In this document: positions 3,753-32,071 of the stretch, piece after piece | Layout: each line of letters starts with the position of its first letter | Numbering within the stretch: the first letter of the stretch is position 1 | Assembly (NCBI GenBank): GCA_012522805.1 | Contig: JAAYJS010000038.1 | Location: forward strand, 1 to 32,071 | Source of the DNA: Eubacteriaceae bacterium | GTDB taxonomy: Bacteria; Bacillota; Clostridia; Eubacteriales; Eubacteriaceae | DNA: 32,071 nt | Reading direction: 5' to 3' | The notes under the pieces: model-generated | Seen by the model: only the letters and a program-made list of their open reading frames with translations | Databases searched by the model: none | What the model was told of the DNA's origin: nothing | Translations under genes and position numbers: made by a program

Positions 3753-4892
3753 TTAATACGTACCGTTTTCGCGGATATAGCGGTTGACGGCGTTTAAGTG
3801 GTTGACTTGGATATCCTTAATGGTGGTGGTAATTTTGTCGAAGCCAAACATATAGCCGCCACCGGGTGCTAAAATATCCACCAATTCCTTGGTTTTGTCG
3901 ATACACTCCGACTCGGTGCCATGGGCCAGCAAGGTGACCGGATAAAAGCCGGTCAGAGCCATTTTATCTCCAATCTTGTCTTTGATGGCCTTGGGATCAG
4001 CATACTCAAATCGACCCAAAATCCGTTTTTCCGGCAACGTTACTAAATGGTCGTAATAACGCGTCCAATCCCCTTCAAAGAAAATATAGAGGTAATAACC
4101 TTTTTGTGTGAGGATATCCACCATTTTAGCGAAGGTCGGCCAGTACATCTTGTCGAAAACCCGATCGCTGATATAGGGTGGCATGTGGAGAGGCATAAAG
4201 ACCATGGCATCTACCGTTGGTGGCGCCACCACGGCTTTTTGAATCATTAAGGGTAGGAGGGCTTCGCAAGCTTCGATCACTTTTTCCGGCATACGGCGAA
4301 CGTCCTTGGAAATTCCGGTAAAGCTGCGGAGCAAATCGGCTAAAAAGTCAAAAGGTGCCTCGGCGGATGCAGCGGTGAGGACGAATAGACCCTCTTCTTC
4401 CAACAATTGACCCATGGCGGCATTATAAGGGCCGAAGGTGCGATTGAGAGACATCATGCCCCTTGCCAATGCCATGGAGCGATAGGGCTCCGGTTTATCA
4501 AAGACTTTGTAGAGTCTCGGCAAGCACTTTCCCGCTAAAAATGCCGGAACATCGGCGATGAGTTCATCGTATTCATCGTCTTCCATAGAGTGCACTTCCG
4601 GGTGTTGCACAAAACCCTCTTTGCTTTGTATAAAGGATTTGGCTTCCAAGGAGGTGTAATAACGGGGAGAACGGTAAAAGGTACTGCGGATAAAGTCGCC
4701 CTCAAAGGCCGGGACGGCCTTTCTCATAGCGTCGATGACTTTTTCCGTTTCCCACAATCCGTCAAAAATGTGATAACCGGCGTATTCGATGGCCATTTCC
4801 GGTGTGATGATGTGTTCGATTGGAATGTAATCCGGTTTTTCCATATGCATGACTTTGCGAATATTGTCGATCCGACTTTGTTTTTTATCCAT
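3753..4892 (-). CDS. Uroporphyrinogen decarboxylase-fold protein (URO-D superfamily, probable methyl-transfer role)
   Basis: A 379-residue protein with the URO-D TIM-barrel fold. The N-terminal RIDNIRKVMHMEKPDYIPIE segment is the usual start of clostridial URO-D-family proteins, and YADPKAIKDKIGDKMALTGFYP and LAPGGGYMFGFD match the C-terminal half. True HemE enzymes are ~340-350 residues and carry an N-terminal RxPVWxMRQAG motif, which is absent here. This points to the paralogues that act in corrinoid-dependent demethylation (MtaA/CmuA-like) or unknown reactions. No corrinoid protein or methyltransferase partner lies next to it. It is the first gene of a two-gene unit with the 49-residue protein, preceded by a structured leader. 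The ATG follows AAAGGAAA, a moderate ribosome site. Confidence 0.75.
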   Translation of the reverse strand: MDKKQSRIDNIRKVMHMEKPDYIPIEHIITPEMAIEYAGYHIFDGLWETEKVIDAMRKAVPAFEGDFIRSTFYRSPRYYTSLEAKSFIQSKEGFVQHPEVHSMEDDEYDELIADVPAFLAGKCLPRLYKVFDKPEPYRSMALARGMMSLNRTFGPYNAAMGQLLEEEGLFVLTAASAEAPFDFLADLLRSFTGISKDVRRMPEKVIEACEALLPLMIQKAVVAPPTVDAMVFMPLHMPPYISDRVFDKMYWPTFAKMVDILTQKGYYLYIFFEGDWTRYYDHLVTLPEKRILGRFEYADPKAIKDKIGDKMALTGFYPVTLLAHGTESECIDKTKELVDILAPGGGYMFGFDKITTTIKDIQVNHLNAVNRYIRENGTY

Positions 4893-4925
4893 TTCTCATT
4901 TCCTTTCTTCAGTGGAATTTGGTCC

Positions 4926-5008
4926 CGAGGTGTGGCCAGCCGGCATGAAAAGCAATCATGAGGAGGTATCGTTGACCATGCCGGGAACGCCTCAAGGCCT
5001 GACCCTCG
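4926..5008 (-). ncRNA. Candidate structured leader RNA of the URO-D gene
   Basis: Three nested perfect pairings surround a 29-base loop. Given on the plus strand they are CGAGG 4926-4930 with 5004-5008, GGCC 4934-4937 with 4996-4999, and CCGGCATG 4940-4947 with 4977-4984. The inner strands are joined by short unpaired stretches on one side and a longer one (GAACGCCTCAA) on the other. The element ends 33 bases before the URO-D start codon. This part is GC-rich while the flank beyond 5010 is strongly AT-rich. There is no T-tract, so control, if any, would act on translation or by a factor. I cannot match it to a riboswitch class I know. Confidence 0.45.
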
Positions 5009-5224
5009 ATCAAAACAATGTTTATTGAATAAAAGATAATTCAATGATAAGGGACAATTTACGAAAAGTCAATACAAAACATTAAATAAAATACAATTTA
5101 CTAAATAAATAATGAGATTTACGCTAATAATGAGAAAATAATAGGAAATATTTGCCAAATTTTTAGAACCCTCCCTTGATTGAGGCAGCACCCAACCCCT
5201 GGGGATTTTTAACAGAAAGGAACC
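5009..5224. other. AT-rich divergent intergenic stretch
   Basis: This spans the gap between the URO-D leader and the aromatic operon promoter. It is very AT-rich with runs such as AATAAATAATGAG. It should hold the URO-D promoter; TTGTCC with a 17-base spacer and TTTTAT is a weak candidate on the minus strand near 5026-5056. Nothing else is recognised. Confidence 0.3.
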
Positions 5225-5253
5225 TTGACATTTTTTTCCATAAACCTTATAAT
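5225..5253 (+). promoter_or_regulatory. Consensus sigma-A promoter of the aromatic amino acid operon
   Basis: TTGACA (5225-5230) and TATAAT (5248-5253) are separated by exactly 17 bases, a perfect consensus. The strength fits a gene set held back by attenuation downstream. Confidence 0.93.
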
Positions 5254-5277
5254 GATAAAAAATTAAGGAGCAGAACG

Positions 5278-5394
5278 ATGGTAACTCGCACCCACCTTCA
5301 ATTTGATTACGCCTATGGTTATCAATATCGTCGCGACGATGTTGATCAATTTAATATGCGTAAAATTGAACGGGTAGACCTTTGCCATTGTTAA
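5278..5394 (+). CDS. Tyr-rich leader peptide of the aroF-tyrA operon
   Basis: A 38-codon reading frame starts at ATG 5278 behind AAGGAG and a consensus promoter, and ends at TAA 5392-5394. The peptide contains F-D-YAYGYQY at residues 9-17, so four Tyr codons occur in seven positions, plus Phe9 and Phe25. A near-perfect inverted repeat of 13+13 bases (5321-5346) begins inside the last two Tyr codons. A ribosome waiting for charged tRNA-Tyr would therefore cover its left arm. A terminator follows 26 bases after the stop and the next genes make tyrosine. These are the hallmarks of a ribosome-mediated attenuation leader. The product itself probably has no function. A longer frame from 5176 exists but lies upstream of the promoter. 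Confidence 0.82.
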   Translation: MVTRTHLQFDYAYGYQYRRDDVDQFNMRKIERVDLCHC

Positions 5395-5419
5395 CTGTGT
5401 GACCATTATAGGTAAATTC

Positions 5420-5462
5420 AGGGACTCTCGTGAGTCCCTTTTTTATTGGGACTTGCAGTCCC
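5420..5462 (+). terminator. Attenuator terminator with an alternative hairpin before aroF
   Basis: GGGACTC (5421-5427) pairs with GAGTCCC (5432-5438) around TCGT, with an A-T pair outside, followed by T6: a compact intrinsic terminator between the leader peptide and aroF. Directly after it GGGACT (5448-5453) and AGTCCC (5457-5462) form a second small hairpin. The arms have the same sequence, so they can also pair across the two hairpins, giving mutually exclusive folds just before the aroF ribosome site. Confidence 0.85.
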
Positions 5463-5476
5463 ATCAAGGAGAAAAA

Positions 5477-6487
5477 ATGATTGTCGTCATCAAGCCGCGT
5501 GCAGCAGAAAATGAAATTCAAAAATTAATGGACAAAATTCGCATTCAAGGTGTCGATATCCACTATTCCAAGGGAGCATCTCAAGTCATCTTGGGTTTAG
5601 TGGGCGATACGCAAGCGATCAACCGGAACATGATCGCTTCCAGCGATATCGTAGAAAAGGTTCTGTCCGTTCAAGAACCTTATAAAAAAGCCAACCGTCT
5701 GATTCACCCGCAGGATACGATTTTGGAAATCATGGGTCGAAAAGTCGGAGAGGGCAACTTAACCGTTATGGCGGGGCCTTGCTCGGTAGAAAGTGAAGAA
5801 CAAATCGTCTCTGTAGCCAAGGATGTTCAAGCTGCCGGTGCCCACTTTTTAAGAGGGGGCGCCTTTAAACCCAGAACGTCTCCCTATTCCTTTCAAGGCA
5901 TGGGAAAAATGGGTTTGGAGTTGCTATCCATCGCTAAGAAAGAAACCGGTCTGCCCTTGGTCAGCGAACTCATGGACTTGCAAGACTTAGATCTCTTTGA
6001 AGACGTGGACGTCATTCAAGTCGGCGCGCGAAACATGCAAAACTTCTCCCTTTTAAAGGAATTGGGTAAAATCGACAAACCGATTTTGCTTAAAAGAGGG
6101 TTGTCCGCCACCATCGAGGAGTGGATTATGAGCGCGGAATACATCATGGCCGGTGGGAACGAAGAGGTGATCCTCTGTGAAAGAGGTATCCGAACCTTTG
6201 AAACCATGACGCGCAACACCTTAGACCTGTCCTGTATTCCCATCATCAAATCCAAAACCCATTTACCCATCATCGTCGATCCCAGCCACGCCACAGGCAT
6301 CCGTTGGGCGGTCAAGGCGATGGCCAAGGCTGCGGTAGCTGCCGGTGCCGATGGCATCATGGTGGAGGTACACAACGACCCGGCCCACGCCCTATGCGAT
6401 GGCGAGCAAGCCCTGTCCCCTGTGGACTTCTCCCAACTGATGGACAGCATTCAAAAAATTAGTCAGATAGAGGGTAAGGTGATATAA
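5477..6487 (+). CDS. aroF: 3-deoxy-D-arabino-heptulosonate 7-phosphate (DAHP) synthase, type I-beta with regulatory N-terminus
   Basis: A 336-residue enzyme that condenses phosphoenolpyruvate and erythrose 4-phosphate, the first step of the shikimate pathway. Residues 1 to ~70 form the ferredoxin-like domain (MIVVIKPRAAENEIQKL...) that mediates Tyr/Phe feedback inhibition in the Thermotoga-type enzyme. The catalytic barrel shows AGPCSVES, GGAFKPRTSPYSFQG, a LLKRG active-site stretch, IVDPSHATG and the closing VEVHNDPAHALCDGEQAL. The start is ATG 5477 behind AAGGAG. A GTG at 5399 opens the same frame but would run through the attenuator. It overlaps tyrA by one base (TAATG), so translation is coupled. 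Confidence 0.95.
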   Translation: MIVVIKPRAAENEIQKLMDKIRIQGVDIHYSKGASQVILGLVGDTQAINRNMIASSDIVEKVLSVQEPYKKANRLIHPQDTILEIMGRKVGEGNLTVMAGPCSVESEEQIVSVAKDVQAAGAHFLRGGAFKPRTSPYSFQGMGKMGLELLSIAKKETGLPLVSELMDLQDLDLFEDVDVIQVGARNMQNFSLLKELGKIDKPILLKRGLSATIEEWIMSAEYIMAGGNEEVILCERGIRTFETMTRNTLDLSCIPIIKSKTHLPIIVDPSHATGIRWAVKAMAKAAVAAGADGIMVEVHNDPAHALCDGEQALSPVDFSQLMDSIQKISQIEGKVI

Positions 6488-7386
6488 TGAACCTATGCGA
6501 TCAACATGTCGCAGTCATCGGTTTGGGCTTAATGGGCGGCGCCTTCGCTTTGGGTTTGCGTCAATTGGAACCAGCCAGCATCATGGCAACGGATTGCAAC
6601 AAAGAGGTCTTGGAGAAAGCCCTGGAAGAAAAAATCATCGATTATGGCGCCCAAACACCGGAAGAAATAGCCCGGATGTTGTTTCAAAGCCATTTGATCA
6701 TCCTGTGTTTGTATCCCTCAGATGCCATTGATTTTGTAAAGACCTACGGGCGGTATTTTCAGGAAAACGCCATTTTAACCGATATTGTGGGGGTGAAGGA
6801 ACCGATTATTCGGGATATCAAAGAAGCCCTGCCCCCTACGGTGGATTTTATTCCCGGGCACCCCATGGCAGGCAGTGAGAAGGAAGGCTTTCTCGGTGCA
6901 ACGGAGGATATTTTTGTCGGACGCAACTACGTGCTGACCCCCTTGCCGGAAAACAAAAAAGAAAATTTGAACTTTATAAAGACTTTGATCAAACGCCTGG
7001 GATTTGTCAACATCGTGGAGAGCACACCGGAAGAGCACGACCGAAAAATTGCCTTTACCTCTCAATTGTGTCACGTCATCGCCGCAGCCTTAGTGGATGC
7101 CGACGAAGACCTCAAAATCACCGATTTTGAAGGGGGGAGTTTCGGCGATTTAACCCGCATCGCCATGATCAACGCACCGATGTGGACGGAATTATTTTTA
7201 ATGAATAAAAAGGCTTTGCTTGCGGAAATCGATAAATTCGAAGAGAGCTTGCAAGCCATCAAAGGGCACATTGCCCAAGACAATGCCGAGGCATTGATCG
7301 AAACGTTAAAGGACGTCAGGGATAAACGGGTTGTCATGGAAATTCAACGTATGAACAAGACCCGCACCCCTTTCCCTACAAAATAA
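6487..7386 (+). CDS. tyrA: Prephenate dehydrogenase
   Basis: A 299-residue NAD(P)-dependent enzyme turning prephenate into 4-hydroxyphenylpyruvate, the tyrosine branch. The N-terminal Rossmann motif is VIGLGLMGGAFALGL (residues 10-24). DIVGVKEPI, the GHPMAGSEKEGF substrate loop and the helical C-terminal domain (EEHDRKIAFTSQLCHVIAA, GGSFGDLTRIA) follow. The chain ends after the helical dimerisation domain and has no C-terminal ACT domain, unlike the ~370-residue Bacillus form that senses tyrosine. Feedback control of this enzyme by tyrosine through an ACT domain is therefore not expected, which fits control at the leader. It is translationally coupled to aroF. Confidence 0.95.
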   Translation: MNLCDQHVAVIGLGLMGGAFALGLRQLEPASIMATDCNKEVLEKALEEKIIDYGAQTPEEIARMLFQSHLIILCLYPSDAIDFVKTYGRYFQENAILTDIVGVKEPIIRDIKEALPPTVDFIPGHPMAGSEKEGFLGATEDIFVGRNYVLTPLPENKKENLNFIKTLIKRLGFVNIVESTPEEHDRKIAFTSQLCHVIAAALVDADEDLKITDFEGGSFGDLTRIAMINAPMWTELFLMNKKALLAEIDKFEESLQAIKGHIAQDNAEALIETLKDVRDKRVVMEIQRMNKTRTPFPTK

Positions 7387-7400
7387 ATGAAAGGAATACC

Positions 7401-8189
7401 ATGAATTTACCCTATCTCAGCGATAGCCACGCTCACTTGGACGACTCGCGATACGACTCCGACCGAGAAAACGTGATACGCGAAGCCGAAGAAGCGGGAG
7501 TGGGCTTGATCTTAAACCCCGCCGTTAACGAACACAGCGCTCGTTGCGCCTTGGAACTCACCAAGGAGTTCGACATTGTGTATGCCGCCGTGGGCTTTCA
7601 TCCTTCGGACTGCCGGGATTTTGATCCCGATGTCCACCTACCCATGATGGAAACCTGGTGTCAAGATGAAAAGGTCTTGGCCATCGGAGAAATCGGATTG
7701 GACTACTACTACGACGATGGCGCCCCCCGAGATTTGCAAAAAAAAGTTTTTGAAACACACATCGATTTGGCCAATCGCATGGAATTGCCCATCATCGTGC
7801 ACAATCGGGAAGCCCATCGGGACACCTATGAGATGGTGCGGGATTTATTGGATGAGGAATCCGGCGGTGTCTTTCATGCTTATAGCGGCTCCGTGGAAAT
7901 GGCCAAACAATTGTTGGATTTGGGTTTGTATATTTCTATCGCCGGCCCCTTAACCTTTAAAAATGCCAGAAAAGCGCCGGATGTGGTGGCTTATGTCCCC
8001 TTGGATCGATTGCTTTTGGAAACCGACAGCCCCTATTTAACACCCATGCCTTATCGCGGTAAGCGCAACCATCCCGCTTATGTTCGCTACATTGCGGAAA
8101 AAATTGCGGAAATCAAAAACATCCCCTACGAGGATGTGGTGTATCAAACTTTTGAAAATTGTAAAACTCTTTTCGGACTGGACGTATAA
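7401..8189 (+). CDS. tatD: TatD-family metal-dependent deoxyribonuclease
   Basis: A 262-residue TIM-barrel hydrolase of the TatD/YcfH family, thought to act as a 3'-5' exonuclease or AP-type DNase. It shows SHAHLDD at residues 9-15 (metal-binding HxH), GEIGLDYYYD, the HNREAHRDT segment with its His ligand, HAYSG and ETDSPYLTP near the end. The start ATG follows AAAGGAA, 14 bases after the tyrA stop, so it is probably in the same transcript. Its presence beside aromatic genes is likely a housekeeping coincidence, not a pathway link. Confidence 0.93.
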   Translation: MNLPYLSDSHAHLDDSRYDSDRENVIREAEEAGVGLILNPAVNEHSARCALELTKEFDIVYAAVGFHPSDCRDFDPDVHLPMMETWCQDEKVLAIGEIGLDYYYDDGAPRDLQKKVFETHIDLANRMELPIIVHNREAHRDTYEMVRDLLDEESGGVFHAYSGSVEMAKQLLDLGLYISIAGPLTFKNARKAPDVVAYVPLDRLLLETDSPYLTPMPYRGKRNHPAYVRYIAEKIAEIKNIPYEDVVYQTFENCKTLFGLDV

Positions 8190-12003: not shown

Positions 12004-12014
12004 GCTTTTAGAAC

Positions 12015-12123
12015 TATCTTCAGGGCAGGGTGTAATTCCCTACCGGCGGTATAGCCCGCGAGCCGTAAGGCATGATTCGGTGAAACTCCGAAGCCGACAG
12101 TAAAGTCTGGATGAAAGAAGATA
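12015..12123 (+). promoter_or_regulatory. FMN riboswitch (RFN element)
   Basis: The closing stem P1 is TATCTTC (12015-12021) with GAAGATA (12117-12123). Inside are the conserved RFN blocks: AGGGCAGGGTG near the start, ATTCCCTACCGGCGGTA, AGCCCGCGAGCC, TGATTCGGTGAAACTCCGA, and GCCGACAGTAAAGTCTGGAT. Binding of FMN should favour the terminator just downstream and shut off riboflavin synthesis. Confidence 0.96.
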
Positions 12124-12147
12124 TACGTATTGTATGACGTTCATTGA

Positions 12148-16536: not shown

Positions 16537-19041
16537 TTAAGATTCTTTTTGAATCTCGTCGTCTTCTTGCGTTGTGTTCAAAGGCTTACCATTATAGACG
16601 AAGAGATTTTTAACCCTCGCCATTAAATTAGAAGCAGAGATTAAAAACAAAGGTATAACCACAAACCAACCCAATTGGAAAACCGTAAAGGCGCCGTCGT
16701 AGATAAAAAAGTTGATCAAGGTACCGACAAGATAGGCGATCATCAACACGATGGCAACGATCAGAGTGCGAGTAAAGGACAGATTGATTGTCAATAAACT
16801 CATCAGCCCCAAGGCGATGACCACGGAGTAATCGATGATGGTCAAGTTTCCGTTTAAAAAAATCAATTGAACACCGAAAGCAATCACCGCTGCGATAAAG
16901 AACAACAGAGAATGACGAATGGAAGTTACCGGTGGGAACCCTTGTTGGGGAAGGATGCTTTCTCCGGGAGTTAAGGCGACAGCCGGTTCCGAGACCACGT
17001 GTTCTTGGAAATGGAGAGGCTCATCGTGGAAGGCTTCCAATGGAATGGTATCTTCTGCATCCACATCCGGTATCACGATATCCTTAATATCCGGAATGGT
17101 GGTGGGATCAAAGACTTGCGTTTCTGTTGCCGGGTTTTCTTCCTCAAAGGCATCTAAAAACTCGGTAACCGCAGGGTCTTGCACGAGTTCATCCAATACC
17201 GGCTCTTCGTCAAGTGGGGTTTCATCCTCTTCGATGAATGCGCTTTCCTCTTCTTCGGGAGATGGGTCATCCTCTTCAAAGCTCACCGGCTGTCCCGGTT
17301 CGGTATGCTCAAACTTCTCTGCTTCGAGCTCGAGCTCCTGCTTTTCTTCATCGATTTGTGCCAAGCGTTCTCTTTCAAGGCGCAGCTCATCTTCAATCAG
17401 CTGTTCCTTAGCTAAACGGGCCTCTGCTAGGCGCTCTTCTTTGAGACGTTCTTCCTCGGCAATTCTGGCTTCTTCCGCCAGTCGTTCTTGCTCCAAACGC
17501 TCTTCTTCGAGACATTTTTCCTCGGCAATTCTCTCTTCTTCTGCGAGTCTTTCCTGTTCCAGTCGCTCTTCTTCGAGGCGTTTTTCTTCGGCGATTCTTT
17601 CTTCTTCTGCCAGCCGCTCCTGCTCTAAACGCTCTTCTTCGAGGCGTTTTTCCTCGGCAATTCTGGCTTCTTCCGCTAGCCGTTCCTGTTCCAAACGTTC
17701 TTCTTCCAGGCGCTTTTCCTCGGCGATTCTCTCTTCTTCCGCCAGTCGTTCCTGTTCCAAACGTTCTTCTTCGAGACGTTTTTCCTCGGCAATTCTCTCT
17801 TCTTCCGCCAGTCGCTCCTGCTCCAAGCGCTCTTCTTCCAGACGCTTTTCTTCGGCAATTCTTTCTTCTTCTGTCAGTCTTTCCTGTTCCAGGCGTTTTT
17901 CTTCGGCGATTCTTTCTTCTTCTGCCAGCCGCTCCTGCTCCAGTCTCTCTTCTTCCAGGCGCTTTTCTTCGGCGATTCTTTCTTCTTCCGCCAGTCGCTC
18001 CTGTTCCAGTCGTTCTTCTTCCAGGCGTTTTTCTTCGGCGATTCTGGCTTCTTCCGCCAGTCGTTCCTGCTCCAAGCGCTCTTCTTCCAGACGTTTTTCT
18101 TCGGCAATTCTGGCTTCTTCCGCCAGTCTTTCCTGCTCCAGTCGCTCTGCTTCCAGACGTCTGCGTTCTTCCTCTAAGCGCTTTCTTTCCAATCGCTGTT
18201 GGCGGATGGCAGCTTGGTCTACCGCAACCCAACGGGGTTTTTCCATCTCCCTCAAAGCAGCGGCAACTTTTTCCAAATTGATGGTGCGCTGTTCTTCGAG
18301 GAAAATTTTTTCCAATTCAACCGGGTCTGAAATGTCCTCTTCAGCTCTCGACAATGGGTCTTCTTGTAGTTCGGCAATAGGTGGATTGTCCATACCGGGC
18401 TGCGCAATCGGTGTTTCTTCTCCCGATGGGTCGACTGCCTGCGTCTCCCGGTACTCTTCCTCCGCAATAGATTGGGGTTTCAGTCCCTCCGATGCTTCGG
18501 TATGTGTCGAAGTGTCCTGGTGCAAAACCACATCCTGAGTCGATGTCTCATTTTCAGGGGTTGTTTCGGCGTCAATTTTCTCTAAGTCTTGGACCGGTTC
18601 GGTCTGTGTTTCGAGATGTTCTTGGACTTCTTTTGGAGGTGCGGGTTTCTTTTTTCTTTTCCAAAACATAGCAACTTTTTCCTTCCATCTACTCGGTGGT
18701 GTCGGTTGATTGACCACCTTGGTGTTTTCTTCTTGCTGCCCGACCTCTTGGTCGAGGTATTCGGTTTCATTCTCTGTGTCTGCTGCAATGGGGACATGAC
18801 CGGTTTCGGGCGCTGCCTGTTGTCTTTTTTTTAATTCCTCCGCAATGGCGCGTTGGTTGACAATATCCGTCCAACGTTTCGTTACTTGCAGGGGTTGTTC
18901 GTTTGAGGGGGGTGTATCCTGAGAGATGGACATCTTCGATATTTTATCCTCGATTCGGTTTTCGCATTGATCGAATGTCGAATAAAGATGTTCCCTTTTA
19001 TGGGCATAACCGTTGTTCTCATTGTGATTGTGATCTCCCAT
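16537..19041 (-). CDS. Large charged repeat protein with C-terminal membrane domain, unknown function
   Basis: An 834-residue protein with an unusual layout. Residues 1-~265 are polar, acidic and probably disordered, with a basic patch (VAMFWKRKKKPAPP). Residues ~275-560 are an almost pure Glu/Arg/Leu/Ala helix with ten tandem repeats of 22 residues. Residues ~565-705 are acidic and Pro-containing. Residues ~711-806 form four membrane spans, followed by a short charged tail. There is no signal peptide, so the long N-terminal part should be in the cytoplasm, tethered to the membrane from its C-terminal end. The helix could act as a rigid spacer or coiled coil. Similarity to TolA or IF-2 would be compositional only. 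ATG 19041 follows AAAGGGA; ATG 18933 (MSISQDTPP) is an alternative. It appears to be a single-gene unit. Confidence 0.8.
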   Translation of the reverse strand: MGDHNHNENNGYAHKREHLYSTFDQCENRIEDKISKMSISQDTPPSNEQPLQVTKRWTDIVNQRAIAEELKKRQQAAPETGHVPIAADTENETEYLDQEVGQQEENTKVVNQPTPPSRWKEKVAMFWKRKKKPAPPKEVQEHLETQTEPVQDLEKIDAETTPENETSTQDVVLHQDTSTHTEASEGLKPQSIAEEEYRETQAVDPSGEETPIAQPGMDNPPIAELQEDPLSRAEEDISDPVELEKIFLEEQRTINLEKVAAALREMEKPRWVAVDQAAIRQQRLERKRLEEERRRLEAERLEQERLAEEARIAEEKRLEEERLEQERLAEEARIAEEKRLEEERLEQERLAEEERIAEEKRLEEERLEQERLAEEERIAEEKRLEQERLTEEERIAEEKRLEEERLEQERLAEEERIAEEKRLEEERLEQERLAEEERIAEEKRLEEERLEQERLAEEARIAEEKRLEEERLEQERLAEEERIAEEKRLEEERLEQERLAEEERIAEEKCLEEERLEQERLAEEARIAEEERLKEERLAEARLAKEQLIEDELRLERERLAQIDEEKQELELEAEKFEHTEPGQPVSFEEDDPSPEEEESAFIEEDETPLDEEPVLDELVQDPAVTEFLDAFEEENPATETQVFDPTTIPDIKDIVIPDVDAEDTIPLEAFHDEPLHFQEHVVSEPAVALTPGESILPQQGFPPVTSIRHSLLFFIAAVIAFGVQLIFLNGNLTIIDYSVVIALGLMSLLTINLSFTRTLIVAIVLMIAYLVGTLINFFIYDGAFTVFQLGWFVVIPLFLISASNLMARVKNLFVYNGKPLNTTQEDDEIQKES
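17461..18105 (-). repeat. Ten tandem 66-bp coding repeats (22 residues each)
   Basis: Inside the charged protein the unit AEEKRLEEERLEQERLAEE followed by (A/E)RI is repeated ten times (residues 313-527). Nine copies are full length; the fourth has only 17 residues because five (EEERL) are lost in frame. Variation at protein level is confined to A/E at one site, one T and one Cys (AEEKCLEEE), while synonymous changes are frequent. More degenerate copies flank both sides. The 22-residue period is three heptads plus one residue. Confidence 0.95.
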
Positions 19042-29972: not shown

Positions 29973-30001
29973 TTGATCTTATACATAATCAGTGGTACAA
30001 T
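29973..30001 (+). promoter_or_regulatory. Sigma-A promoter of the first secreted repeat protein
   Basis: TTGATC (29973-29978), a 17-base spacer and TACAAT (29996-30001), 44 bases before the start codon. Confidence 0.7.
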
Positions 30002-30045
30002 ATAGTTGACATAAACTAATAGATAAGTTTAGGAGGAAAGATAAA

Positions 30046-30723
30046 ATGAAAAAATTAGTATTAGTAGCTGTTTTAGCAATGGTCGTTATGGCTGTTAGCT
30101 TTGGTAGCGTATTCGCTCAAGCTGAAGTAATTGGCGACAATAACGATAAAAATATTGTATTAGATTTAGCGGCTGATATTGCAGCAAACGTAACAGTTAA
30201 CGCTATCAACAACAGTCCTAATCAAATTGCAACCGTAGAAGGTGATGACGTAGTAGTAAACCAAAAAATGGTTTCTAACGTTAATGCATGCGCTCAAGGC
30301 GTAGCAGCTACCGATGGTGCTGCAGTTGCAGGTGCAGGTGGTGGCGCTGGCATAGTCGGCGACAACAACGACGACAACGTAGTAGTTGAAGGCGATGCAG
30401 CGATTGCTATCAACTTAACTGGAAACATAGTTAACAACAGTCCTACTCAAGTAGCAGATGTATCCGGTGATGACGTAGTTGTAAACCAAGAAATGGAATC
30501 TAACGTAAACGTAAAAGCTTGTGGCGTAGCTACAGTTGGTAACGTATGTGTAGATTTAGGCGACTGCTGCTGCGACGTATGTGAAGTAGTATGTGAAGAA
30601 GTCAAATGCTGTGAAGTAGTCACCACTGTTCCAAAAACAGGTGATGTTGCTTCCTTAGCAAGTGTAGTAGCTTTAGTCGTATCCGGTTTAGGTGCGACGG
30701 TTGTAGGCAGAAAAATTAAATAA
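30046..30723 (+). CDS. Secreted two-repeat protein with Cys cluster and LPXTG-like sorting signal, copy 1
   Basis: A 225-residue surface protein of unknown family. Residues 1-24 are a signal peptide (MKKLVLVAVLAMVV...VFA). Two related segments follow with a 75-residue offset, at ~29-83 and ~104-160. Each has the order GDNN...NNSP...GDDVVVNQ-M-SNVN then a Cys, and a Gly/Ala linker lies between them. The regular Asn, Val and Gln spacing suggests stacked beta-strands. Next is a Cys-rich stretch (Cys168, 174-176, 179, 183, 188, 189). The end is a sorting signal: VPKTG (195-199), a hydrophobic run and the basic tail GRKIK, pointing to sortase attachment to the wall with Val for the usual Leu. A strong AGGAGGA site precedes the ATG. 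No sortase gene lies in the window. Confidence 0.83.
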   Translation: MKKLVLVAVLAMVVMAVSFGSVFAQAEVIGDNNDKNIVLDLAADIAANVTVNAINNSPNQIATVEGDDVVVNQKMVSNVNACAQGVAATDGAAVAGAGGGAGIVGDNNDDNVVVEGDAAIAINLTGNIVNNSPTQVADVSGDDVVVNQEMESNVNVKACGVATVGNVCVDLGDCCCDVCEVVCEEVKCCEVVTTVPKTGDVASLASVVALVVSGLGATVVGRKIK

Positions 30724-30746
30724 GGATTCTACAATAGAATAAAGAA

Positions 30747-30779
30747 AAAGAAGCAAGGCCACACCTTGCTTCTTTTTTT
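30747..30779 (+). terminator. Terminator after secreted repeat protein copy 1
   Basis: A 12-bp stem (AAAGAAGCAAGG with its complement) around CCACA, followed by T-rich sequence. Confidence 0.9.
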
Positions 30780-31078
30780 ATTGAAGATCTCCCTATTTGC
30801 ATTGCTGAGGTTTAACATTTCTAAGATATAGTTTTGAATTATCCACGGACTTTTACTTTCTTGTGGGAAAACGAAATTACGAAAACAGAGCATCATATTG
30901 AGGTTTCGTTTACAATATTTACAATAATGTGACATAGAAAATCTCCAAATATGTCCTAAAAAAAGCGATAAAAATCGAACTATAAAATTGGATTGATAGA
31001 TAAAACCCCCTATTTTAGGTAGTTACAGGGAGAACACAGGTTGTTTTTCAAAAAAAATAATAAAATCTTAGATAATCC
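30780..31078. other. AT-rich spacer between the paralogous genes
   Basis: The 300 bases between the first terminator and the second promoter show no conserved element and no similarity by eye to the region before copy 1. A minus-strand frame from 30935 with a fair ribosome site (GGAG) and an N-terminal YCKYCKR runs into the terminator and is judged doubtful. Confidence 0.3.
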
Positions 31079-31107
31079 TTGAACTCTAATCTTAAAGCTG
31101 TTATAAT
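31079..31107 (+). promoter_or_regulatory. Sigma-A promoter of the second secreted repeat protein
   Basis: TTGAAC (31079-31084), a 17-base spacer and a perfect TATAAT (31102-31107). It is a different and stronger-looking promoter than that of copy 1, so the two paralogues can be expressed separately. Confidence 0.82.
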
Positions 31108-31154
31108 AAACACATTAAAAAGCACTAATTGATAAATTTAGGAGGAACTATAAA

Positions 31155-31823
31155 ATGAAAAAATTAGTATTAGTAGCTGTCTTAGCAATGGTCGTTATGG
31201 CTGTTAGCTTTGGTAGCGTATTCGCTCAAGCTGAAGTAATCGGCGACAATAACGGTGAAAATATTGTATTAGATTTAGCAGCTGATATTGCAGCAAACGT
31301 AACAGTTAACGCTATCAACAACAGTCCTATGCAAGAAGTAGATGTAACTGGTGATGACGTAGTAGTAAACCAAAAAATGGTTTCTAACGTTAATGCATGC
31401 GCTAAAGGCGTAGCAGCTACCGATGGTGCTGCAGTTGCAGGTGCAGGCGGTGGCGCTGGCATAGTCGGCGACAACAACGACGAAAACGTAGTAGTTGAAG
31501 GCGACGCAGCGATTGCTATCAACTTAACTGGAAACTTAGTCAACAATTCACCGGGTCAAATTGTAGATGTAGAAGGTAATGACGTAGTTGTTAACCAAGA
31601 AATGGAATCTAACGTAAACGTAAAAGCTTGTGGCGTAGCTACAGTTGGTAACGTATGTGTAGATTTAGGCGACTGCTGCTGCGACGACGTATGCGAAGAA
31701 GTCAAATGCTGTGAAGTAGTAACCACTGTTCCAAAAACAAGTGATGTTGCTTCCTTAGCAAGTGTAGTTGCTTTAGTAGTATCCGGTTTAGGCGCTACTG
31801 TTGTAGGCAGAAAAATTAAATAA
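31155..31823 (+). CDS. Secreted two-repeat protein with Cys cluster, copy 2, with altered sorting motif
   Basis: A 222-residue paralogue of the preceding gene, nearly identical in signal peptide, first repeat and C-terminus. Differences cluster at the ends of both repeats (SPMQEVDVTGDD and SPGQIVDVEGNDV) and in the Cys-rich stretch, where three residues with one Cys are missing (CCCDDVCEEVKCC), leaving nine Cys. The sorting motif reads VPKTS instead of VPKTG: one base change (GGT to AGT) removes the Gly after which sortase products are defined, so wall attachment may fail and the protein may stay in the membrane by its C-terminal helix. Similarity starts about 30 bases before the ATG (CTAAT..GATAA.TTTAGGAGGA) and stops at the end of the gene, which marks a tandem duplication. 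Confidence 0.83.
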   Translation: MKKLVLVAVLAMVVMAVSFGSVFAQAEVIGDNNGENIVLDLAADIAANVTVNAINNSPMQEVDVTGDDVVVNQKMVSNVNACAKGVAATDGAAVAGAGGGAGIVGDNNDENVVVEGDAAIAINLTGNLVNNSPGQIVDVEGNDVVVNQEMESNVNVKACGVATVGNVCVDLGDCCCDDVCEEVKCCEVVTTVPKTSDVASLASVVALVVSGLGATVVGRKIK

Positions 31824-31864: not shown

Positions 31865-31891
31865 AACCCCGACTAACCTCGGGGTTTTTTT
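31865..31891 (+). terminator. Terminator after secreted repeat protein copy 2
   Basis: AACCCCGA pairs with TCGGGGTT around CTAACC, followed by a T run. Confidence 0.9.
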
Positions 31892-31912
31892 GAGCGTAGA
31901 CATAAGCCGTGC

Positions 31913-31978
31913 AAAATTTCCCCAATAGTGCCATGTGGGAGAGTTGACTCTCCAGGTTGGCACTATTGGGGAAATTTT
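31913..31978. repeat. Long perfect inverted repeat with nested inner hairpin
   Basis: A 21-bp perfect stem (31913-31933 with 31958-31978, outer end AAAATTTCCCC) encloses a 24-base loop that itself contains GGAGAG-TTGA-CTCTCC. It lies after a complete terminator and has no gene of its own. Its size and symmetry fit a palindromic intergenic repeat, a MITE-like unit, or a preferred target of another element. Confidence 0.85.
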
Positions 31979-31981
31979 ATA

Positions 31982-32071
31982 GGGCGTGTCCGTAAATGAC
32001 TGAAGCGCTAGCGAAGGAATGAGGACAAGCCCGGGAATGTTACGAAGGAAAATTCAGAGCACGGCTTAAAA
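31982..32071 (+). mobile_element. Structured DNA at the window edge, possibly the start of a group II intron or other element
   Basis: GGGCGTGTCC (31982-31991) can pair with GGACAAGCCC (32023-32032) with one mismatch, and TAAGCCGTGC (31903-31912) with GCACGGCTTA (32059-32068) perfectly, so the region folds as a nested unit. The stretch CAGAGCACGG also occurs, from memory, in domain I of some bacterial group II introns, and class C introns insert behind terminator-like hairpins as found here. No intron-encoded protein is visible because the window ends. The call is weak. Confidence 0.25.

Follow-up and report, generated by a model that had tools for sequence, protein, structure and literature searches.

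A tandem pair of strongly codon-biased, probable sortase-type surface proteins whose copies differ mainly in a short segment of each repeat

Two tandem genes of a Eubacteriaceae bacterium encode nearly identical proteins that read as exported proteins with sortase-type C-termini. Two properties of the pair are new: its codon bias reaches the level of ribosomal-protein genes, and the differences between the copies are concentrated in seven codons of each repeat. We give slightly less than an even chance to the reading that these are a lineage-specific, very abundant pair of sortase-type surface proteins whose hairpin tips are diversifying. Sortase-type surface proteins as such are known, but no domain has been described for this family, and our searches beyond this genome yielded no supported relative. 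If the codon bias means high expression, the two proteins would rank with the cell's most abundant products, and they would shape the surface of this lineage. The stretch that we analysed (the window, 32,071 nucleotides) makes up the whole of contig C25 in a 2.02-Mb genome (G000) of 47 contigs, which places the gene pair near a contig end, so that additional copies are possible.

The original prediction had described two nearly identical tandem surface proteins, and the open reading frames bear this out: the products, of 225 and 222 residues, are 92% identical. Both have the same order of parts, namely a signal peptide (MKKLVLVAVLAMVVMAVSFGSVFAQ, recognised by reading), two repeats, a Gly/Ala-rich linker, a Cys block and a TTVPKT[G/S]D tail. 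Two repeats per protein had been proposed correctly, but the stated length of 55 residues is slightly short: they span about 60 residues at a spacing of 75, with 36 of 60 residues identical between repeat 1 and repeat 2 within each protein. In both genes the signal sequence, repeats and tail line up in register across hundreds of bases, far beyond chance. As to composition, the description of the repeats as rich in Asn and Val holds for the mature proteins (Val 21%, Asn 11%, with Ala at 12-13%), whereas Gln makes up only 2.5-3%, so the description as rich in Gln is wrong. Both proteins are strongly acidic (27-28 Asp plus Glu against 8 Lys plus Arg; pI about 4; net charge about -19). The predicted CCC and CC clusters are present in both, and the totals are 10 Cys for gene 1 and 9 for gene 2. 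An EF-hand-like reading of DNNDDNVVVEGD was dropped, as it fits repeat 2 of gene 1 and not repeat 1.

Each gene also has, as had been claimed, its own TG-extended -10 promoter-like site, AGGAGG sequence and terminator hairpin (Table 1). The promoter scan as a whole performed at about the level of chance (7 sites versus 5.8 in shuffles), and we credit these two putative promoters because their positions match, 44-47 bases before each start codon. A riboswitch was looked for upstream of the pair and none was found. Past the second terminator, positions 31906-31985 hold a 39-nt inverted repeat (82% complementary, 2-nt loop) with only short partial matches elsewhere in the genome, and positions 32016-32071 are identical to the first 56 bases of another contig (C16:1-56), like an assembly-graph joint; a carA-like gene comes next on that contig (L075, 589-1707).

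Table 1. Coordinates of the gene pair, its parts and its divergent paralogues (window positions unless a contig is named).
Feature	Position	Strand	Basis
Promoter-like site, gene 1 (TTGATC-17-TACAAT, TG before -10)	29973..30001	+	consensus scan; putative
Ribosome-binding site AGGAGG, gene 1	30031..30036	+	sequence
Gene 1: 225-aa secreted repeat protein, VPKTG end	30046..30723	+	ORF; codon-bias z against recodings 6.7
Signal peptide, gene 1 (about residues 1-24, VFA/Q)	30046..30117	+	sequence; predicted cleavage site
Repeat 1, gene 1 (residues 26-85)	30121..30300	+	
Variable 7-codon segment, repeat 1, gene 1 (residues 59-65)	30220..30240	+	
Repeat 2, gene 1 (residues 101-160)	30346..30525	+	
Variable 7-codon segment, repeat 2, gene 1 (residues 134-140)	30445..30465	+	
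Cys block, gene 1 (residues 159-189; 9 Cys incl. CCC, CC)	30520..30612	+	sequence
Sorting-type C-terminus, gene 1 (TTVPKTG + hydrophobic + GRKIK)	30622..30720	+	TIGR01167 score
Terminator hairpin 3' of gene 1	30745..30777	+	stem listed on - strand; T-run read on + strand
Promoter-like site, gene 2 (TTGAAC-17-TATAAT, TG before -10)	31079..31107	+	consensus scan; putative
Ribosome-binding site AGGAGG, gene 2	31140..31145	+	sequence
Gene 2: 222-aa tandem paralogue, VPKTS end	31155..31823	+	ORF; codon-bias z against recodings 6.6
Repeat 1, gene 2	31230..31409	+	
Variable segment, repeat 1, gene 2	31329..31349	+	
Repeat 2, gene 2	31455..31634	+	
Variable segment, repeat 2, gene 2	31554..31574	+	
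Cys block, gene 2 (residues 159-186; 8 Cys)	31629..31712	+	sequence
Sorting-type C-terminus, gene 2 (TTVPKTS + hydrophobic + GRKIK)	31722..31820	+	sequence
Terminator hairpin 3' of gene 2	31865..31886	+	
Divergent paralogue, 350 aa, IPKTA end	C24:7944-8996		
Divergent paralogue, 298 aa, IPKTG end	C1:23085-23981	-	

With rpsL, rpsG and fusA as the reference set, the codon adaptation index (CAI) is 0.81 for gene 1 and 0.80 for gene 2, the highest of 32 genes compared. The three reference genes themselves reach 0.68-0.79 and the 23 other window genes 0.54-0.71; rpoB and rpoC also fall below the pair. When the same two proteins were recoded with window-average codons, the CAI dropped to 0.62-0.63 (SD 0.03), and none of 2000 recodings reached the observed values. 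The bias is much weaker in the divergent paralogues. Taking codon bias as a proxy for expression, this bias at the level of ribosomal proteins suggests that both genes are probably very highly expressed. Two EF-Tu-like frame starts occur elsewhere in the genome, at C5:8726-8809 and C27:32777-32860, the latter at the very end of its contig, possibly a duplicated tuf gene split by the assembly.

The two copies differ very unevenly along their length. There are no amino-acid changes in the signal peptide and linker, and nonsynonymous differences in the Cys block plus tail total 2.5, G199S among them (dN 0.018, dS 0.18). Within the repeats, 9 of the 15 differences fall in residues 59-65 and 134-140, so that 9 of 14 residues differ in these two segments versus 6 of 106 in the rest of the repeats; the segments were picked after the data had been seen, and the counts come from two genes and four repeats. 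Five of the differing places match between repeat 1 and repeat 2 (P = 2e-4), and the nonsynonymous proportion pN is 0.51 in the segments versus 0.03 elsewhere. Of the informative sites, the 42 outside the segment without exception group the first repeats of the two copies together; of the 4 inside it, none follows this repeat phylogeny, three pairing crosswise and one by copy (P = 6e-6). The four versions of the segment, one per repeat, are NQIATVE, TQVADVS, MQEVDVT and GQIVDVE: places two (Q) and six (V) are constant, and places one, three and seven change. Such alternation of constant and variable places fits a single exposed face of a beta-strand.

With two genes to go by, segment exchange among the repeats, relaxed constraint and selection could each account for the variable segment. 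Synonymous change is elevated in it too (synonymous proportion pS 0.37 over 9.5 sites), and for that reason local recombination or relaxed constraint can suffice without selection. Adenine-targeted change of the kind made by a diversity-generating retroelement is argued against by the unchanged CAA and GTA codons within the segment. That a fast-evolving surface protein was simply duplicated in tandem not long ago, with differences that serve no special function, strikes us as a somewhat unlikely alternative: the family is lineage-restricted, the differences are few overall and the synonymous ones are raised in the segment too, but a plain duplicate does not readily account for differences that cluster sharply at matching places of both repeats and break the repeat phylogeny.

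AlphaFold2 gave a pLDDT of 30 for the full-length protein. For a single repeat (six rows) it predicted a two-strand hairpin, with strands at residues 49-65 and 68-83, at a mean pLDDT of 57 that rises to 74-78 over residues 56-75, the hairpin tip. This weak model would place the variable segment in the distal part of the hairpin's first strand, beside the turn, and in it the variable residues 59, 61, 63 and 65 alternate with the conserved Q60 and V64.

Profile and database searches agree with the earlier statement that the proteins belong to no recognised family: Pfam, NCBIfam, PHROGs and the PDB gave no supported match, the PHROGs matches being weak only (E 0.06 or worse). Two divergent paralogues are present in the same genome (Table 1); they have the tail in common with the pair, along with a P-x-Q ... 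D-[VI]-V-[VI]-x-Q motif. Since only 1 to 6 of 2000 shuffles matched their local similarity to the pair, with tail and signal peptide left out, a distant kinship appears likely. Directly upstream of the 350-residue paralogue, at 4548-7811 of the C24 locus L032, lies a gene for a 1087-residue protein with six Big_3 Ig-like stretches.

Farther afield, no supported relative was found in 60 relatives, in the order (67 genomes), in samples of 391 genomes of the class and 398 of the phylum, in public genome contigs searched with the protein and a repeat profile, or in viral contigs, plasmids and phages. A match in the class sample (L048, E 7e-4) lies inside a DnaN-like gene and is a false positive, while in L039 and L040 (E 0.005) only the first 70 model positions aligned, that is, the signal-peptide end, and no ORF of at least 150 residues is listed for L039. 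On these searches the family is lineage-restricted, with members so far in a single genome; because the relatives searched included no other genome of the same genus, the claim can go no further than restriction to this genus.

The C-terminal layout that had been described, VPKTG in gene 1 or VPKTS in gene 2 followed by a hydrophobic stretch and GRKIK, is there, and together with the signal peptide it makes both products, by reading, exported proteins with sortase-type C-termini. The sorting-signal model TIGR01167 scored 16.1 bits on gene 1 in a genome scan (cut-off 15.9) and 11.9 bits on the whole protein; gene 2, where the same layout is recognised by reading, gave no match in either the protein or the genome scan. 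The tails of the four paralogues in this one genome are TTVPKTGD, TTVPKTSD, TTIPKTAD and TTIPKTGD, so the fifth motif place in this family can hold G, S or A.

A search of the genome for sortases, which the original prediction had called for, returned five (PF04203, over the cut-off). One is of class B (TIGR03064, 178 bits) and four are of class C type, three of these four passing the class C cut-off; three class C-type enzymes sit in a pilin cluster on contig C29. That pilus-type cluster (L028, 4595-14345) holds, besides the three sortases, proteins ending in FPKTG, MPKTG and IPQTG. The class B sortase of Clostridioides difficile cuts between T and G in (S/P)PXTG motifs such as PPKTG and SPKTG, and SPKTGD occurs in its substrates (PMC4155245). 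By inference from that cleavage, the likely anchoring route here is the class B enzyme acting on [VI]PKT[G/S/A]. The C. difficile substrates (e.g. CD2537 and CD3392) resemble our proteins as surface proteins exported by an anaerobe that has a class B sortase in its genome, with an xPKTGD-type motif and a hydrophobic and basic tail; unlike them, our proteins have Val or Ile as the first motif residue, and for the repeats we found no family common to both.

The original prediction had taken VPKTS for a broken motif and suggested that the VPKTG protein may be bound to the wall and the VPKTS protein held in the membrane or released. That the motif is broken is not established: in vitro, both LPXTS and LPXTA serve as substrates for streptococcal class A sortases (PMC9520033, PMC9126251), and one of the paralogues in this genome has an IPKTA end. 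Cells of C. difficile did not process proteins bearing SPSTG and SPQTG, and proteins with non-preferred motifs turn up in the supernatant (PMC5569036), which leaves room for a difference in location between the two proteins; the lack of processing also counts against the class B route proposed above. G199S belongs to a very small number of amino-acid changes in a Cys block and tail that are otherwise conserved. A single substitution is weak evidence, and we regard a split by anchoring as unlikely.

In the reading we prefer, the protein would be exported and retained at the membrane by its hydrophobic tail, and one of the sortases, with the class B enzyme at C1:149577 as the likeliest candidate, would cleave after the Thr of VPKT-G/S and attach it to the wall. 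The two repeats would fold as beta-hairpins, in which the outward side of the strand toward the tip diversifies through substitutions, possibly also through segment exchange among the repeats, with the packing residues (P58, Q60, V64 and DVVVNQ), the Cys block and the anchor conserved. Because the outward face varies while these parts stay, the duplicate would probably add a second variant of the same exposed surface, and not a form with another anchoring. Its role might be that of a coat, an adhesin or a decoy toward phages, predators or host. We consider it rather improbable that the pair goes as far as a dominant lineage-restricted beta-hairpin coat with a conserved Cys-rich base, its tips diversified in place by segment exchange or selection in the manner of antigenic variation or phage escape. 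From the sharply bounded variable segment one would expect strains to vary at residues 59-65 and 134-140, with few changes outside them.

The same proteins had been read as amyloid-like, and one can picture a self-assembling fibre coat (a functional amyloid) like that of the Streptomyces long chaplins, in which the repeats would polymerise and the sorting tail would tie the fibre to the wall. Two beta-prone repeats before a sorting signal are indeed the layout of a long chaplin, such as the chaplin family protein of L055 (3413-4897), and the proteins are rich in Val and Asn, strand-rich in the weak models and probably highly expressed. A weak local score against a short chaplin was equalled by 12 of 500 shuffles and another chaplin score by 16 of 500, which likely reflects composition, so chaplin homology was rejected. 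The long chaplins lack the Cys block and variable segment found here, and our proteins lack the chaplin domain, whose Pfam model was unmatched at E up to 10, making the two work-alikes at most. The curlin repeat (PF07012) was likewise unmatched in Pfam up to E 10: a Q-x4-N fragment occurs in VVVNQEMESN, but the Q-x4-N-x5-Q periodicity of curlin is absent.

Rodlins (NF041022; L055-L060) share with our proteins an IGDxN ... SP spacing that is identical by eye, and the rodlin amyloid region falls within the resembling stretch (PMC5314377). NCBIfam gave no match to NF041022, the hhalign probability was 2.7% and covered only the signal peptide and first residues, and 377 of 500 shuffles scored equally high; we rejected rodlin homology and treat the spacing as chance. 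With Gln not enriched (3%) and the charge strongly negative, the amyloid-like description is not supported, and a fibre coat seems to us quite unlikely.

The acidic Cys block, DCCCDVCEVVCEEVKCC, might instead bind metal ions or link neighbouring proteins by disulfides, giving a metal-binding or cross-linked coat. Each protein has 9-10 Cys, the block is conserved between the copies, and the divergent paralogues have one Cys and none, so the cluster is specific to the pair. Against this, Pfam and NCBIfam gave no match to a metallothionein or other family, no obvious metal-related gene adjoins the pair, and conservation between two recent copies says little about function kept. We consider such a coat quite unlikely.

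Elsewhere in the window, positions 16537-19041 encode an 834-residue protein in which RLEEERLEQERLAEE(E/A)RIAEEK-type repeats form a long tandem array and hydrophobic segments lie at the C-terminus, and an FMN riboswitch (119.5 bits) at 12012-12126 precedes a ribD-ribE-ribBA-ribH-like cluster.
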